Shown: positions 8,417 to 22,114 of the stretch, one piece after another
How the letters are laid out: each line of letters starts with the position of its first letter
Position numbering within the stretch: position 1 is the first letter of the stretch
Virus record (IMG/VR): IMGVR_UViG_3300030099_000153
Location: 1-22,490 of that record
DNA: 22,490 nt
From: a virus
Direction: 5' to 3' (one strand)
The notes under the pieces: generated by a model
What the model was told of the DNA's origin: nothing
The model's database searches: none
What the model saw: the letters and a program-made list of their open reading frames with translations, nothing else
Translations under genes and position numbers: made by a program

Positions 8417-10872
8417 TAATAATATACCTCTGTTGTTATGCCCAATACTCTAAATGGTAATGGAGCTGATTGTGAAATTGTTAAGTTTGGTTCTAAACTA
8501 TAGCCCAATGTATATACCTCTTTCTTTCCTGTAAAATTAGGGAGTCCAAGACTCGGATTATTTGTACCATCTAAAAGTAATATATCATTACTATTTACTT
8601 GTATATTATAAGTTGTAGATAACTCAACAATTGCTTTACCTATTTTTCTAGGAAAACCTGTAAGCTGACCACTTTGTATAGTTGAGTCAATTGGTAGGGT
8701 TTGAACATCAGTTGTATAATCTATTCCTATATCTGCTGCACTTGTTGGTGTAGTAAATGTTACATTACCACTACTGCTAACAGTTCCTTTACCAAAGAAA
8801 TATATAGCACCTCCCTCTGTAGAACCTGCAGTTGCAAATACTTCTTTGCCTATATGTGTTGTTAATCCTGAAAAAGATTTACTTGTAACAAATTGTAACG
8901 CTGTGTTATCTGCTTCTGTAACTGCTGCATCTACAACAATTGTGTACTCTCCACTAGTACCAGTAGAAGTTGCACTCTGTATTACATATGTAGTACCAGT
9001 TCCTCCAAACTGAAATTGCTCTGATTGACTTGGTGGATTGTTTGTAAATCCATCTGCTATAAAAGTTGTAGAAGAAGATACTGCACCTTTGGTTAATGGT
9101 GTTCCATGTGGTTGATAACTTCCTGATATAGTTTTAGTAACTGTGTAATCTGTAGGTACATCAAAAGATTGTGATGCAAATTGTTCTAATGAATATTTAG
9201 TAACACCATTTATAGTTCTTGAAGTTGCTACATATATACCAGCAGTTGTACATGCTACAGAAGTATAACTACCATCTGTTTCAAACAATACCCATCCTGC
9301 TATCTTCTCTGCTCTTTGAGAAGTAAATACTGCAAGTGATCCATCTGTATTAACTAAAAAATATAATTGTTCAGTTCTGTTTTCAATAGCAGTTATTTGT
9401 GCAGAATCTATTGGATTTGAAATTAAATGACTTGATAACAATGAAATACTATTAGAAGTAAATTCATCATTACCTGTGCTATATAAATATTCTCTAACTG
9501 TTTTGCCATTGTTTTGCATAAAGATAGTAGCACCATCAAATATTCTTGGTTTAGCTTTTAGTTGTGAACCTAATGTAGATTGTCTAATGATTTGTATATT
9601 AGTAGGAGTAATAGGTTTAGATACTTCAGGTTTCATAAAAAACTCTGATGTACTTGTAAGTATTTGTAATCTTCTTCCTGAAACTAAATGTCTTATTTCA
9701 TTTACTTGATCTGATCCAATTTGTATTTGTACAGAATCTGCATCTTCTGCTTCTCCTACATCAAAGTTAAAAAAGTCTGCTACCTTACTAGCTTGTACTC
9801 CATCAGGTAATGCAAGAACACCACCAAAAAATAATCTTTGTTCATGAAAAGTTACAGTTTGTGGAAAACCATTTACTTGTGAAAATACTTGTTCATCCCA
9901 TTGTCTTGTAGGAGGATGGCCTGATATAGTAACTCTTACTCCACCACCATCTACAGATTCAGTTGCAGTATCACTTCCACCTGCTGTAAATTCATAATGG
10001 TTATTATCTAAAACTGTTATTGTTCTTGTACCATTTATATTACTAGCAGCTAATCCATTACCATCTGTATCAAATATATCTTCTGATCCTGATATTGTAA
10101 TAGATGCACCATTACTAAATCCATGTTCTACATGAGTAACTTTTACTGCTCCTGAACCTTGTTGTGTTGCAAAAGGATCATCATCTAATTCTATTGATAC
10201 ATCATCTTTAAGTGTTGCTGTTACTTGTGTAGGAGATGTATATCCAGTAATTGTTAGTTCAGTTCCATGATATCTAATAACCATACCTACATAACCTGAA
10301 GTAAAATAAGATGCTGATGTTGTTGCAGTAACTCCTGTACCTGCAGTAGCTGTATCTATATCTAAAGTAATATCATCATCTGCAAACTTAAAATATGGTT
10401 GAAATATTTCTTTATCATTTACTGATGTTTCAAAACCAAATGCTGCTCTTGTAAAAGATGTTGATCCAGTTCTTTGTATAACTTGTGGTACAAAATCTTG
10501 ATGTGTTATTATCATAGTATCTCCTGATTGAGTCATATCCATTTCAAATAATTCTGCAGTAACCCAAGGACAGCTTGATAATGTAGCTAATAAAGTACCA
10601 TTAGTAGAATAAACTTTTAATGATTGGTTTTGGAATGCAAATATATATTCTTGATTTTGATTAAATATAAATGTTTCTAATCTAGTTTCTGCACCAAGAT
10701 CAGCACGAAATACAGAACCACCTCGTCTTTCAATACCACCTTGGTTTATTGGAATAACATTTCTAGCTTTTTTTAATCCTTGACCATATGCTGCAAGATC
10801 AACTCTTGATACTATTGTTGGATTTAATTCTCCTCGTAAGAAACTTGATTGATGAACCCTTTGTCTAGCCAT
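8416..10872 (-). CDS. Tail tubular protein B, T7 gp12-like nozzle (818 aa)
   Basis: The N-terminus (QSSFLRGELNPTIVSRVDLA ... YGQGLKKARNVIPINQGG, then ERRGGSVF) is the hallmark opening of podophage gp12 or stabilisation proteins, which form the hexameric tail nozzle. T7 gp12 is 794 aa, so the length agrees. Residues about 243-315 hold a VTHVEHGFSNGASITISG module, common in these proteins, followed by the conserved WDEQVFSQVNGFPQTVTFHE QRLFFGG block split around residue 344. The C-terminus is beta-rich. It directly follows tail tubular A with a 9-base gap and precedes the gp14-like gene with a one-base overlap, as in T7. Assignment is firm. Confidence 0.93.
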   Translation of the reverse strand: MARQRVHQSSFLRGELNPTIVSRVDLAAYGQGLKKARNVIPINQGGIERRGGSVFRADLGAETRLETFIFNQNQEYIFAFQNQSLKVYSTNGTLLATLSSCPWVTAELFEMDMTQSGDTMIITHQDFVPQVIQRTGSTSFTRAAFGFETSVNDKEIFQPYFKFADDDITLDIDTATAGTGVTATTSASYFTSGYVGMVIRYHGTELTITGYTSPTQVTATLKDDVSIELDDDPFATQQGSGAVKVTHVEHGFSNGASITISGSEDIFDTDGNGLAASNINGTRTITVLDNNHYEFTAGGSDTATESVDGGGVRVTISGHPPTRQWDEQVFSQVNGFPQTVTFHEQRLFFGGVLALPDGVQASKVADFFNFDVGEAEDADSVQIQIGSDQVNEIRHLVSGRRLQILTSTSEFFMKPEVSKPITPTNIQIIRQSTLGSQLKAKPRIFDGATIFMQNNGKTVREYLYSTGNDEFTSNSISLLSSHLISNPIDSAQITAIENRTEQLYFLVNTDGSLAVFTSQRAEKIAGWVLFETDGSYTSVACTTAGIYVATSRTINGVTKYSLEQFASQSFDVPTDYTVTKTISGSYQPHGTPLTKGAVSSSTTFIADGFTNNPPSQSEQFQFGGTGTTYVIQSATSTGTSGEYTIVVDAAVTEADNTALQFVTSKSFSGLTTHIGKEVFATAGSTEGGAIYFFGKGTVSSSGNVTFTTPTSAADIGIDYTTDVQTLPIDSTIQSGQLTGFPRKIGKAIVELSTTYNIQVNSNDILLLDGTNNPSLGLPNFTGKKEVYTLGYSLEPNLTISQSAPLPFRVLGITTEVYY

Positions 10873-10881
10873 ATCATTTTC

Positions 10882-11490
10882 CTATGGAGATTTTGCAGTT
10901 ATATTATTTAATGCAGTTCTATTTCTAACATTTCTAAATCTATCAAGATCAAGATTTCTAGTAGTTTGTTGTTGTGAATCTAATGCTCTTGATACTGCTA
11001 ACTGGGCTACTGCTCTCTTGTGATATAATTCTGATAACTGATCATTACGAGCAATTGCACCAGCAAACAAAGACGCTAGTTCAAAGACTAGCGTCTGTGT
11101 AAAAAAGGGAGGAAAATCGCTTTCACTGGGTTGGAAAGTATAATCCGATATTAAGGTATCACTAGATGTTGTGTTTGTAAATATGTTTCCACCATATATA
11201 TCGTATTTAATAACATCATCAGAAACTGTTATTGTGTGTATAACTAATGCATCATTTGGCATAGCATATGAAGATTCATATCTAGCATCAGGATTAGTAG
11301 TATTTTTACTTAATTGTTTTTGTTTAGATGCAAATCTCCATCTACATCTAGTTAATAAATTTTCTAAAGTAGATTCATAAAGATTATTAGCTACTTTGGA
11401 TTCTGTAGTTGCTTGATTAAAACTTGTGATTGTATTAGCACCTACGAGTACAAGTGCTTTATTGCAGATATCAAATTTAGAATTAGCCAT
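10882..11490 (-). CDS. Tail tubular protein A, T7 gp11-like adaptor (202 aa)
   Basis: The protein opens with SKFDICNKALVLVGANTITS and contains LYESTLENLLTRCRWRFASK, both characteristic of the gp11 (tail tubular A) family that joins the portal to the nozzle. T7 gp11 is 196 aa. PNDALVIHTITV near residue 80 and the helical C-terminal region (LASLFAGAIARND ... QLAVSRALDSQQQ) also fit. The gene lies downstream of the capsid and decoration genes and just upstream of tail tubular B, as in T7. No good Shine-Dalgarno precedes ATG 11490, in contrast to the capsid genes. A hairpin lies 20 bases upstream, so its expression may be lower than that of capsid. Confidence 0.92.
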   Translation of the reverse strand: MANSKFDICNKALVLVGANTITSFNQATTESKVANNLYESTLENLLTRCRWRFASKQKQLSKNTTNPDARYESSYAMPNDALVIHTITVSDDVIKYDIYGGNIFTNTTSSDTLISDYTFQPSESDFPPFFTQTLVFELASLFAGAIARNDQLSELYHKRAVAQLAVSRALDSQQQTTRNLDLDRFRNVRNRTALNNITAKSP

Positions 11491-11509
11491 AGTTTATATG
11501 TACACTAGA

Positions 11510-11535
11510 TATGGGGAGAAGTAAATCCCCCCATA
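11510..11535 (-). terminator. Hairpin between capsid module and tail tubular A (weak terminator or processing site)
   Basis: TATGGGG at 11510-11516 and CCCCATA at 11529-11535 make a perfect 7-bp stem with a 12-base loop. An alternative 5-bp stem GGGGA/TCCCC uses the same G run. On the minus-strand transcript it lies after the decoration gene and before tail tubular A. No run of U follows, so it is not a canonical intrinsic terminator. T7 has its Tphi terminator at the matching place, between genes 10 and 11. Confidence 0.45.
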
Positions 11536-11548
11536 CCATGTTTAGTTA

Positions 11549-11794
11549 TTATGTACCATTGATAGTAGTAACTGTAGCTGCACCTGTTGCAGATGAAACT
11601 ACTAGCATATCTACAGTTCTAGTACCACCAGTTGAACCTACAGCGATTATAATATCATTCTGTTTTAGTTCATTGGTTGCACTATTAAAGTAGCCACTAC
11701 CAGCGATAGTTCCGATTGCGTCAGCAGAATCATATAAGAATACACTCATAGCTCCACCAGCGACTTTTCGTAAGTTACTTGCTGAATATGCCAT
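11549..11794 (-). CDS. Small capsid-associated (decoration-like) protein, 81 aa
   Basis: This 81-aa protein (MAYSASNLRKVAGGAMSVFL at the start) lies directly after the major capsid gene. It has a DSADAIGTIAGSGYFNSATN segment followed by a strand-rich part (NDIIIAVGS, TVDMLVVSSATGAATVT). I recall small proteins of this layout next to capsid genes in many marine and environmental phages; the role is usually unassigned, with capsid decoration or a head-fibre base as the common guess. It has a perfect AGGAGG SD placed over the capsid stop, implying high-level expression like capsid itself. No enzymatic motif is seen. Confidence 0.7.
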   Translation of the reverse strand: MAYSASNLRKVAGGAMSVFLYDSADAIGTIAGSGYFNSATNELKQNDIIIAVGSTGGTRTVDMLVVSSATGAATVTTINGT

Positions 11795-11799
11795 TTATG

Positions 11800-11805
11800 C
11801 CTCCT
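11800..11805 (-). promoter_or_regulatory. Strong Shine-Dalgarno of the decoration-like gene
   Basis: AGGAGG on the minus strand lies five bases before ATG 11794 and overlaps the TAG stop of the capsid gene (11804-11806). It fixes the start of the 81-aa gene and suggests coupling with capsid translation. Confidence 0.85.
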
Positions 11806-12628
11806 ATTCTGTTATCTGTACTTTGATCGCACCCTCATTGTCAATCATAGTAGAACCCATTGACATGTAAGATGTGATTAAGCTGCTGACTTTTTCAGGA
11901 ATGTAGTTGATCTCTGTTCTGATCTCTGAACCTACTCCGATACCAACACTTGATTTATGGAATGCATGACATTCTCTTGTTGTACCAGAAATAGAAAGAC
12001 CTGAATGAGTAAACCACATAAATCCTAACCATCTTTTAGCTGTGATTCCACCAGCATATGGAAGATCATTTTCTCCAACATACTCTGCTCTACTGAATTG
12101 ATCTATTTGTAATAAATCAGCCCATCCAGCAGGAGATACTACAAAGTATCTCTGTCCATCATCAGGGATGTCAGCACCACCAAACGCTTCGTACACAGTT
12201 AGTGATTTAGCTAAAGTTAAACCAGCCGAACCATGTGCGACATTGTTTGAGTTTGTACCAGCATCCAAAACATCAATGATGAGTTGGTCTGTTTTTCTTC
12301 CTAATGCAGCAGCAGCATTTGATGACAGAACTTGTCTTTCATCAATGTTAGTTTTTAATTCATCCAATCTATCTACATAATCTGCAGCATAGAAGTCTGA
12401 TAAACTAACATCAACAGTAGAGTGAGAAATATCCATTGTAGGAATTGCAGAGTGTCTTGCTTTATTAACAGCAGTACCCTTGCCTACTTTTTGGAATCTC
12501 GCTTGACTACCTTGTACATTATTAACTTGCCTTATTGTGTTTTTCAGCTTTGATCCCATTCTTTGATAAGCCATGTGGACTTCAGCTTCAAACTGCTTAA
12601 TAAAGGCTGTTGATATAGATGTACTCAT
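11804..12628 (-). CDS. Major capsid protein (274 aa)
   Basis: The gene follows scaffold and the gp13-like gene and precedes the decoration-like and tail tubular genes, which is the capsid slot of T7-like phages. The N-terminal region contains FIKQFEAEVHMAYQRMGSKL, and later DFYAADYVDRLDELKTNIDE, then helical AAAALGRKTDQLIIDVLDAG. These are typical of the shorter HK97-fold capsid proteins of marine podophages. At 274 aa it is smaller than T7 gp10A (345 aa) and has no visible frameshift-extended form. Codon choice is noticeably less A/T-biased than in neighbouring genes, and a perfect AGGAGG SD lies four bases before the ATG, both fitting very high expression. Confidence 0.9.
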   Translation of the reverse strand: MSTSISTAFIKQFEAEVHMAYQRMGSKLKNTIRQVNNVQGSQARFQKVGKGTAVNKARHSAIPTMDISHSTVDVSLSDFYAADYVDRLDELKTNIDERQVLSSNAAAALGRKTDQLIIDVLDAGTNSNNVAHGSAGLTLAKSLTVYEAFGGADIPDDGQRYFVVSPAGWADLLQIDQFSRAEYVGENDLPYAGGITAKRWLGFMWFTHSGLSISGTTRECHAFHKSSVGIGVGSEIRTEINYIPEKVSSLITSYMSMGSTMIDNEGAIKVQITE

Positions 12629-12632
12629 GTTG

Positions 12633-12638
12633 CCTCCT
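12633..12638 (-). promoter_or_regulatory. Strong Shine-Dalgarno of the major capsid gene
   Basis: AGGAGG on the minus strand is four bases before ATG 12628, inside the 38-base gap after the gp13-like gene. It confirms the capsid start. Confidence 0.88.
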
Positions 12639-20141: not shown

Positions 20142-20452
20142 TATGCCTTTCCTTTCTTTTTTTTCTTTTTAAGACGCATTGATATGTTTCTAGCTTTCTT
20201 TCTAGCGTCTGCTTTTGAAGATGCACCCCATGCTCTCAAACTTAAAAGAAGTCTAGTCGGCTTTCCATTCTTGTACTCTGGGCCACGCATGTTCCCCATT
20301 CTAGCAAGGAAAGATGCTCTACGAGGATTGTCGCCACTCTTAACAGGTGCTTTAAGTGTGCCACCTTTATAAGATGCACGACCTTTAGCATTAAGTCCAC
20401 CTTTCGGATTCTTACCTGCTTTTCTCATCCATGCTGGTGTTTTGTAAGCCAT
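20141..20452 (-). CDS. DUF6321-like basic protein (103 aa)
   Basis: The protein is 103 aa: WMRKAGKNPKGGLNAKGRAS, then RRASFLARMGNMRGPEYKNG and LLLSLRAWGASSKADARKKA, ending in a lysine run. The 'GKNPKGGLNA.GRASY' start is the hallmark of a small family (DUF6321, from memory) seen in cyanophages and other marine phages, function unknown. It is strongly basic. ATG 20452 lacks an SD. It is the first gene after the structured 126-base gap below terS, and an extended -10-like TGC-TAGATA on the minus strand just upstream is a weak promoter candidate. Confidence 0.78.
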   Translation of the reverse strand: MAYKTPAWMRKAGKNPKGGLNAKGRASYKGGTLKAPVKSGDNPRRASFLARMGNMRGPEYKNGKPTRLLLSLRAWGASSKADARKKARNISMRLKKKKKKGKA

Positions 20453-20517
20453 GTTAGTTATCTAGCACAAATTGAACGAACCTTAAAGAACATTATTGTG
20501 TGGGGAACACCACTAGC

Positions 20518-20567
20518 TGTAGCGTGTCGTAGTTTTTTGGGGGTGGGGTAACACTCACGACACTACA
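20518..20567 (-). repeat. Inverted repeat with G-tract loop between terS and the DUF6321-like gene
   Basis: TGTAG (20518-20522) plus TGTCGT (20525-20530) pair with ACGACA (20557-20562) plus CTACA (20563-20567), leaving a two-base CG bulge. The 26-base loop carries a T6-G5-T-G4 run on the plus strand. In this A/T-rich genome an 11-bp stem and a G run stand out. It could be an RNA hairpin limiting read-through from terS, or a terminase recognition site. No U-tract follows on the transcribed strand. Confidence 0.5.
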
Positions 20568-20578
20568 ACCTGTGATTT

Positions 20579-20989
20579 CTAGCTTAAGTCTATATTAATC
20601 TTGAAATCGCCACCAACAAGGTGTTGGTGTTTGTCAGGGGCTTTGAAACCACTGCGATCAAGTATGTCCTTTGCTGCTTCTAGCTGGACATACTCTGATT
20701 TAGCCCCCTGACAAAGTTGTAGTAGTCGTGAGGATGCTTTGGCAGAGTGAATCCCAAGAGAACGCTGTATCTCTTGTGCCATGTACTGCTGCACTTCAGG
20801 TTTTCGTAGCATCTTACTGGCACTTACTCTAGCTGAATTACCCTTGTAACCAGCGAGTTTTGATGCTTCTGTGATAGAACATCCACGAGATACAAGCGTA
20901 TCTACAAGTAACTTGGCTTTGCCAGTTATTTGCTTGGGATTCCTACTCTGACTCAAAGCATTCAAAGGTGCTGAAACTACCTTACTCAT
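20579..20989 (-). CDS. Terminase small subunit (136 aa)
   Basis: This is the DNA-recognition subunit of the packaging motor. Residues about 22-62 (TGKAKLLVDTLVSRGCSITE, then ASKLAGYKG and ARVSASKMLRKP) form a helix-turn-helix typical of TerS. The C-terminus EAAKDILDRSGFKAPDK plus a short strand (GGDFKINIDL) is also typical. I place the start at ATG 20989, with AGGAG four bases upstream. A longer frame from 21067 would run through the promoter, so its first 26 codons are rejected. The first codons, SD and promoter lie within the left arm of the large inverted repeat, so the N-terminal tail may derive from the duplicated sequence. Confidence 0.87.
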   Translation of the reverse strand: MSKVVSAPLNALSQSRNPKQITGKAKLLVDTLVSRGCSITEASKLAGYKGNSARVSASKMLRKPEVQQYMAQEIQRSLGIHSAKASSRLLQLCQGAKSEYVQLEAAKDILDRSGFKAPDKHQHLVGGDFKINIDLS

Positions 20990-21019
20990 GAAACTCCTAT
21001 CTGTTAATACCTTACAGGG

Positions 21020-21048
21020 AGTATAGAGGAGAGTCAGGTTTGTGTCAA
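21020..21048 (-). promoter_or_regulatory. Sigma-70 promoter of terS and the late operon
   Basis: On the minus strand a perfect -35 TTGACA (21048-21043) is followed by exactly 17 bases and a -10 TATACT (21025-21020). Transcription should start near 21013, leaving a leader of about 24 bases before terS. This is the best promoter match in the window and indicates that host RNA polymerase reads the late region. The same bases align with coding sequence of the 148-aa gene in the other arm, which reads CTAACA at the -35 position. Confidence 0.85.
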
Positions 21049-21175
21049 GCCACCAGCACAGACACAAGATGTAGTAGTTACCGGATGTCGTGCATCCTGT
21101 ATCTACCTTTTTACAATTACTCCCTTTGTTTAAGTTTAACTACGCCCAACATACAATCAAAGGAGCTTCTTAAAC

Positions 21176-21229
21176 AACAACTAATTTCCCCTCTGCTGCG
21201 CAGATTCCTCGCGAAACAAATTAGCTGTT
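21176..21229. repeat. Central stem of the inverted repeat
   Basis: AACAACTAATTT (21176-21187) pairs with AAATTAGCTGTT (21218-21229), 11 of 12 positions. The 30-base interior holds a small hairpin TCTGC-TGC-GCAGA (21192-21204) and the palindrome TCGCGA (21209-21214). The interior is clearly more G/C-rich than its surroundings. In RNA or extruded DNA this would be the tip of the large hairpin. Confidence 0.7.
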
Positions 21230-21256
21230 CCCCTCGGTGGGCAAGTACACCTCGGT
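21230..21256. repeat. 27-base insert in right arm with a direct repeat
   Basis: This stretch has no counterpart in the left arm. It carries CCTCGGTG twice (21232-21239 and, running one base past the insert, 21250-21257), 18 bases apart. The second copy forms a short hairpin ACACC-TC-GGTGT. Confidence 0.55.
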
Positions 21257-21324
21257 GTTTAAGACTCCTCCATGATTGTTATTCATGTTGGCGTGTTAAA
21301 CATAATAAACAAAGGAGTAAATAT

Positions 21325-21771
21325 ATGAAAAAAGGTAACACAATAAAGGATGCACTAGACATCATGGTAACATACTACGAAGATATGTCTGTGCCTAACA
21401 CAAACCTAGACTCTTATACACCTGCAAAAGCAGTGGTAGGGAGTTTCATAAGAGGTAGAGAAGCAGCTTTGAGATCGGCTTTGAAAGCAAGATCAGGCCC
21501 AGCTTCTCAAATCAGATACCTTGTATCAGATGAAGTTTGGACTGGAGATGAAATCCAAGATACTAAACTTCAACAACTACAAGCATTTGTTGAGAAGATT
21601 GATCAGCAAATGGTTTTGATTGAACAACATAAGCAAGAAGCTATGCAATACTTCTTTGAGAAGTTTGGTGTAGCTTATACGCCTTATGTTCCAAAACCGA
21701 TCAATGTTGCTAATGCTAAAAAGCAAACTGCAGCATACAAAGATGCTTTGAAACTAGTAGCTAACGCCTAG
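21325..21771 (+). CDS. Hypothetical protein, first gene of the divergent operon (148 aa)
   Basis: Not recognised. ATG 21325 follows AAAGGAG by seven bases; an upstream in-frame ATG at 21040 would run through the terS promoter and is rejected. The 148-aa product starts MKKGNTIKDALDIMVTYYED, has a basic helix (FIRGREAALRSALKARSG), a Gln/Glu-rich likely coiled coil (about 85-118, KLQQLQAFVEKIDQQMVLIE) and a Pro/Tyr linker (YTPYVPKPINVA) before a basic C-terminal helix. Codons are less A/T-biased than in most of the late genes. It is first in the rightward set, so it may be an early protein. Its first third and its leader are mirrored in the left arm of the inverted repeat, and its SD could pair with that arm. 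Confidence 0.82.
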   Translation: MKKGNTIKDALDIMVTYYEDMSVPNTNLDSYTPAKAVVGSFIRGREAALRSALKARSGPASQIRYLVSDEVWTGDEIQDTKLQQLQAFVEKIDQQMVLIEQHKQEAMQYFFEKFGVAYTPYVPKPINVANAKKQTAAYKDALKLVANA

Positions 21772-21786
21772 TTTAATTCAAAGATT

Positions 21787-21819
21787 AATCCTGCTTGGGA
21801 TTTATTCCCAAGTAGGATT
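21787..21819 (+). terminator. 14-bp hairpin after the 148-aa gene (terminator-like or regulatory)
   Basis: AATCCTGCTTGGGA (21787-21800) pairs with TCCCAAGTAGGATT (21806-21819) through 14 pairs, one of them G-T, around loop TTTAT. It starts 15 bases after the stop codon. The downstream bases (GTTAATAATG) are T-poor for an intrinsic terminator, so efficiency is doubtful. A second CTTGGGAT occurs at 21882-21889 and could compete for the same partner. Confidence 0.6.
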
Positions 21820-21821
21820 GT

Positions 21822-21927
21822 TAATAATGAGATACATAGACGACAGACTAGGTCATGATTAACCCATATAAGCACGCAAGTCTTGGGATCGTTGGTATTG
21901 CAACCTTAACTATGTATCTCACTATTG
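21822..21927 (+). ncRNA. Candidate structured RNA closed by a 16-pair long-range stem
   Basis: Bases 21828-21839 and 21910-21921 form 12 perfect pairs (TGAGATACATAG/CTATGTATCTCA). After one mismatch, four more pairs (21823-21826/21923-21926) extend the stem. The 70-base interior can form ACGA/TCGT (21840-21843/21889-21892) with AGACT/AGTCT (21845-21849/21879-21883), plus a hairpin GTTG/CAAC (21891-21894/21901-21904, sharing two bases with the previous helix). No good reading frame with an SD lies here. A tRNA was considered and rejected. It may be a small RNA or a cis-acting element between the 148-aa and 44-aa genes. The non-coding stretch 21772-21979 is otherwise accounted for by the flanking hairpin and promoter. 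Confidence 0.5.
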
Positions 21928-21937
21928 ACATCAATAG
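21922..21937. promoter_or_regulatory. Perfect 16-base palindrome, operator candidate
   Basis: CTATTGA (21922-21928), CA, TCAATAG (21931-21937) form a perfect 7-bp inverted repeat. It lies exactly over the TTGACA of the promoter candidate at 21925. A dimeric regulator bound here would compete with RNA polymerase. Confidence 0.5.
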
Positions 21938-21953
21938 AACAAACTGATAACTT
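21925..21953 (+). promoter_or_regulatory. Promoter candidate for the 44-aa gene and downstream
   Basis: A perfect -35 TTGACA (21925-21930) is followed by 17 bases and TAACTT (21948-21953). The -10 keeps the three most important bases (T1, A2, T6) and is preceded by an extended-10 TGA. Transcription would start near 21960, about 20 bases before ATG 21980. The poor centre of the -10 makes this moderate. Confidence 0.5.
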
Positions 21954-21979
21954 TAAACTTAAAAGGGAAAGGAATCGTT

Positions 21980-22114
21980 ATGATTTTATACAAAGGAAAA
22001 GCTAAAGATTACAACCTAAAGAAATTTCTAGCAAAAAGATATGGTGTAATCGTTAGCAAGAAAATGACAATTAAGGAGTTGGAACAATGTCTGAAGAAGA
22101 AATCAATTACTTAA
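21980..22114 (+). CDS. Hypothetical basic protein (44 aa)
   Basis: Not recognised. It is a short frame from ATG 21980 to TAA 22112-22114, with a purine-rich AAGGGAAAGGAA SD region just upstream. The product MILYKGKAKDYNLKKFLAKR, then YGVIVSKKMTIKELEQCLKK, ending KSIT, is basic and looks like a strand-helix-strand-helix mini-domain. Its end overlaps the 78-aa gene by 28 bases in another frame, and the overlap contains that gene's start, as expected for coupled early phage genes. Confidence 0.65.
   Translation: MILYKGKAKDYNLKKFLAKRYGVIVSKKMTIKELEQCLKKKSIT

Follow-up and report, generated by a model that had tools for sequence, protein, structure and literature searches.

How the control region of a phage terminase small subunit gene (terS) comes to mirror the interior of its divergently transcribed neighbor, and whether regulatory DNA arose there from coding DNA, is the question raised by this locus. 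The preliminary description had proposed that a single duplicated copy of the neighboring gene, here termed D, decayed and was turned by small changes into the terS promoter and ribosome binding site. The locus was analyzed in the window, a 22,490-base virus record of a podovirus-like phage whose nearest named relative was Pelagibacter phage EXVC031P Hodr (TerL 87.6%, TerS 78%), and in related phages.

A quasi-palindrome between terS and D

The terS gene (20579..20989, minus strand) codes for a terminase small subunit of 136 aa (Pfam Terminase_2) and diverges from D (21325..21771, plus strand), which codes for a helical protein of 148 aa belonging to no known family. Pfam and PHROG searches with D gave no family with a usable E-value, and its predicted fold of two long helices (mean pLDDT 84) had no significant match in the PDB and two significant matches among the viral models of BFVD, neither with an assigned function. 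In Hodr, D was the first gene of an operon also encoding an ArdC-like anti-restriction protein, a YqaJ-type recombinase, and SSB, and because of this operon content D probably lies on the early side. The GC and keto skews of Hodr were also considered as signs of a bidirectional replication origin, but they merely tracked gene orientation and were uninformative. The GenBank entry for this phage (L087; OQ414635.1) is named EXVC031P Hodr, carries the locus tags EXVC032PBaldr, and lists all products as hypothetical.

Self-inverted alignment of the window revealed an imperfect quasi-palindrome of ~530 bp (20953..21484, centered at ~21218) scoring 88, while the rest of the 22.5 kb never exceeded 33. 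The match spanned the entire terS-D intergenic region and entered both genes, much further than first noted. Its T arm, on the terS side (20953..21218, minus strand), contained the terS promoter, leader, Shine-Dalgarno (SD) sequence, start, and first codons, and its D arm (21219..21484, plus strand) held the D leader and the first ~53 D codons. With an ungapped identity of 75–96% and many indels, the arms formed an imperfect rather than a perfect inverted repeat. The predicted fold of the locus was very stable on both strands (z −11.9 on the plus and −15.1 on the minus strand), and an Rfam search of positions 20500–22000 gave no gathering-level match. A separate, second inverted repeat (21819–21839 and 21910–21930; 21 nt, 90%, 70 nt apart) was present directly past D.

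Within the T arm, the terS −35 hexamer TTGACA (21048–21043, minus strand) mirrored CTAACA (21395–21400, plus strand) and, across a spacer of 17 nt, the −10 hexamer TATACT (21025–21020, minus strand) mirrored TATACA (21415–21420, plus strand) inside Tyr-Thr codons of D. The SD sequence AGGAG (20998–20994, minus strand) mirrored GGGAG (21439–21443, plus strand), and the plus strand of D opposite the SD and the ATGAG start (from 20989, minus strand) read GGGAGTTTCATAAG at 21439–21452. The D codons mirroring the promoter, SD, and start translated as NTNLDSYTP ... GSFIRG (21395..21452, plus strand), and a lineage-specific N-terminal tail of TerS (20930..20989, minus strand) was partly mirrored to D codons 38–54. 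The full inverted alignment scored 53, whereas 1000 dinucleotide shuffles averaged 10.5 (s.d. 1.4) and reached 18 at most, and the piece from the SD to the N-terminus alone scored 18 when none of 2000 shuffles exceeded 15. The alignment of the terS control elements with internal D codons reported in the preliminary description was confirmed, and each motif, including the mirrors CTAACA, TATACA, and that of the SD and start, was found where it had been placed.

Recurrence and concerted change among relatives

The comparison covered 88 distinct terS-upstream loci, including 86 from IMG/VR, and 68 stretches downstream of terS as controls. A palindrome score of at least 45 was reached by 45 of the 88 loci and by none of the 68 controls (control maximum 27), and the quasi-palindromes at the terS/D locus were 250–1435 bp long. 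Hodr had the same layout as the window, and its own inverted repeat, 695 bp long (11941–12635 of OQ414635), scored 135; nothing else in its 34-kb genome was a strong palindrome (next best 30). Four near-complete contigs likewise carried a single palindrome at the terS/D site (575, 410, 81, and 61; next best 26–35), giving one strong palindrome per genome in all five near-complete genomes scanned. Four control phages (Cronobacter Ss1, Methylophilales MEP301, BcepC6B, and pelagiphage HTVC010P) had no palindrome adjoining terS. Elsewhere in their records, HTVC010P (L251) contained weaker quasi-palindromes at 20347–20622 and 34594–34892 (scores 45 and 44), the second at the record end, and BcepC6B (L250) a compact palindrome with a score of 58 at 1–98, right where its record begins.

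No palindrome was detectable in 34 of the 79 clearly scored loci, and its presence was patchy on a terS tree built on few columns (13 changes over the 79 loci). In most loci the center lay ~60–180 bp upstream of the D start codon, independent of the distance to terS. Non-coding DNA mirrored the entire D gene in L042, L061, and L062, and in L073 (same region in G002, 10495–11823) the arm covered almost all of terS, which paired in a different reading frame with the latter half of D and DNA past it, so that terS and D appear to share mirrored DNA there. Four loci with near-identical TerS (L042, L036, L037, and L031) had different D genes and palindrome scores of 583, 96, 43, and 32; this pairing of near-identical terS with differing D genes and palindromes suggests that D and the palindrome are exchanged between phages as a cassette. 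Among 152 distinct loci, the 250 bp directly upstream of terS held a weak excess of contig ends (16 compared to 3–11 per further bin), perhaps reflecting assembly breaks at younger palindromes.

A T arm decaying independently is expected to match the D of other genomes as well as its own, and simulated independent decay scored with the same aligner gave equal within- and cross-genome values and equal numbers of genome-split and homoplasy columns. The observed arms differed from this expectation, with scores of 93 and 111 within compared to 40 and 59 across genomes for L033/L049, 218 and 220 compared to 127 and 152 for L061/L062, 111 and 87 compared to 16 and 17 for L049/L182, and 306 and 218 compared to 13 and 14 for L042/L061. 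Genome-split columns outnumbered homoplasy columns in four-way alignments (21:1, 6:0, 31:1, 42:1, and 154:5). The closer pairs retained arm-split columns and arm-grouped indels beside the genome-split columns, and on this ground their arms are orthologous and partly overwritten. Orthologous arms were more alike within than between genomes, as in a homogenised quasi-palindrome. The terS control region therefore does lie within an inverted D copy, as the preliminary description held, but the copy has been re-homogenised with D in each lineage rather than left to decay.

Clustering of the concerted changes reached p<0.05 for 12 of the 16 pairs, and clustered multi-nucleotide changes equaled the opposite arm, the pattern expected of template switching. 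Their ratio of transitions to transversions (166:232) showed no transition excess compared to single-arm changes (608:664). Patchiness without such an excess points to templated copying rather than site-by-site compensation under selection on RNA pairing. An asymmetry of G-U wobbles across strands (355 compared to 164) was considered as a signal of RNA pairing and was accounted for by a strand composition model (chi2 6.2, 3 df). At mismatched arm positions of 45 loci, the leftward (terS-sense) strand was G+T-rich in both arms. Short indels between the arms were numerous, with 730 gap openings beside 1569 mismatches, and exceeded what simple decay combined with copying would lead us to expect. 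No mirrored change was seen when the window was compared to its nearest relatives (L003–L007), and scores with L003 were about equal within (43 and 36) and across genomes (32 and 37), suggesting that arm-to-arm copying is slow on the scale of the closest kin of the window.

Direction of transfer between control and coding DNA

The terS promoter was compared among 12 aligned relatives in which D differed widely at the mirrored codons. Most of them had TTGACA and TATACT at the same T-arm site despite these differences, the exceptions being L182 without a clean −10 and L073 with a −35 only, and in each relative the spacer tracked its own D sequence while the hexamers stayed conserved. Four further loci (L035, L040, L178, and L180) had a TTGACA-16/18-TATACT promoter upstream of terS, palindrome scores of at most 36, and no D-like gene in a profile search, which comes near to the observation that, according to the preliminary description, would reverse the direction of transfer. 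A footprint in D itself polarised the move. The D genes of L010, L172, and L182 read AACCCAACATC(A/T)GATAC (NPTSD), while those of L101, L102, and Hodr, whose flanks are almost identical, read AACCTTGACACAAATAC (NLDTN); at the footprint, GAGAACCCAACATCAGATACC in L172 was replaced by GAGAACCTTGACACAAATACC in L102, L101, and Hodr, where the new block is the terS −35 sequence CTTGACACAA. Since the D block of this clade equals the terS −35, comparison of these sequences indicates that the −35 is copied into D there, from promoter to coding DNA.

The SD and start gave a different picture. In all 13 aligned lineages, the SD, start codon, and variable N-terminal tail of TerS mirrored internal D codons, and the GSFIRG opposite the SD and start in the window shared its motif core with TSFIYG in the distant D of L072. 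Because this core is common to distant D proteins, transfer from coding to regulatory DNA is the likelier direction for the SD, the start, and the TerS N-terminal tail, and plausibly the actual one. The −10 sits opposite conserved Tyr-Thr-Pro (YTP) codons of D and, on that account, may have an ancient coding origin. Of the proposal that small changes made the promoter and SD from coding DNA, the part concerning the −35 is not supported, that concerning the SD, start, and first codons is plausible, and that concerning the −10 is possible.

Probable template switching between the arms and its alternatives

The locus is a long quasi-palindrome whose arms evolve in concert, probably through two-way copying of patches filtered by selection. 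During replication, a nascent strand in one arm would switch to the complementary arm, copy a short patch, and return to its original template, so that changes would pass from either arm to the other; some other intragenomic conversion between the arms might do the same. Selection would retain the conserved body of D, the terS −35 and −10 hexamers, and the body of TerS, and the promoter spacer, terS leader, SD region, TerS N-terminal tail, and loosely constrained D codons would turn over together. The locus may then persist because copying renews the complementarity and not because a hairpin has a job. Confinement to one site per genome asks for an added cause beyond copying.

The mirror region might be a functional element selected for its symmetry rather than its sequence, for instance a cruciform or hairpin in replication or terS-linked packaging, that is maintained by arm copying; this reading is possible but doubtful, and under it the promoter spacers, ribosome sites, and N-termini of two proteins would be by-products of a structural requirement. 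The related proposal that selection acts on self-complementarity itself, compensatory mutations keeping a DNA hairpin, cruciform, or long hairpin RNA paired for replication, as a packaging signal, or to silence read-through transcripts, is unlikely. It would fit the fixed terS-D place of the palindrome across a diverged family, its single occurrence in each of five genomes, the very stable predicted fold, and its course through two genes in L073, yet concerted changes lacked a transition excess, the wobble asymmetry followed from strand composition, Rfam gave no match, and a palindrome ranging from 250 to 1435 bp was absent from many relatives. With no excess of wobble- or transition-type compensation and no Rfam family, the locus does not behave as a structured RNA under pairing selection.

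Recurrent births, in which each lineage freshly duplicates D in inverted orientation and the copy then just decays, would account for T arms such as that of L072 that are unlike any other, for the patchy presence, and for near-identical TerS accompanied by very different palindromes (L042, L036, L037, and L031). The closer pairs nevertheless have T-arm differences and indels in common through descent while showing concerted columns (6:0, 21:1, and 31:1), within-genome arm scores exceed cross-genome scores, and the loci included no near-perfect young copy, of a kind that short-read assembly tends to miss; this origin is therefore very improbable. Least credible, and nearly discarded, is the original model of one duplicated and decayed copy of D reshaped by small changes. 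The SD, start, and N-terminal tail aligned with D codons whose motif core recurs in distant D, and the −10 mirroring YTP codons, agree with it, but the hexamers are retained in relatives whose mirrored coding DNA is different or missing, one clade copied the −35 into D, which largely refutes the model for the −35, and the contrast between within- and cross-genome scores shows that the copy is not merely decaying.

Known palindromes resemble the locus in some respects and differ from it in others. Palindromes tied to viral replication or genome ends include hairpin telomere resolution sites, viral terminal palindromes, and T7-type concatemer hairpins. The phage palindrome is unlike these in being long, imperfect, different in sequence between lineages, and internal to the assembled genomes (the Hodr record is circular). 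Homogenisation of inverted-repeat arms by template switching, also within genes, is described in reports on quasi-palindrome mutation in yeast genes (PMC8604942) and on stem maintenance in RNA genes (PMC8794818). As in those cases, patches appear to be copied between arms, multi-nucleotide changes result, and coding sequence is affected. In contrast to the short repeats covered there, the phage arms are 100–700 bp long, homogenisation persists at one locus family-wide, and the repeat connects a promoter and a leader with the N-terminus of terS and with a second gene. Mitochondrial genes of Nematomorpha contain coding palindromes that are likewise long inverted repeats overlapping genes, and repeat conversion has been proposed as the means of their upkeep (PMC6649704). 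These are perfect and scattered, differ between species through gain or loss, and have both arms inside one gene, whereas the phage palindrome is imperfect, occurs once per genome, and is fixed between divergent genes with its arms in two transcription units. A literature search on pelagiphage inverted repeats or Hodr found no paper. As far as the searches show, the mutational process is already known and the novelty lies in a maintained, concertedly evolving mirror region.

For interpreting such loci, a leader that resembles a neighboring gene in inverted orientation need not go back to one ancient duplication. Where mirror halves overwrite each other, the promoter, the ribosome site, and the ends of the proteins are repeatedly rewritten, and a polarised transfer from promoter to coding DNA becomes readable from phage sequences. 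The persistence of long palindromes beside essential genes becomes directly testable in this natural system of dozens of marine phages, in which an inverted repeat lets regulatory and protein-coding DNA overwrite each other.
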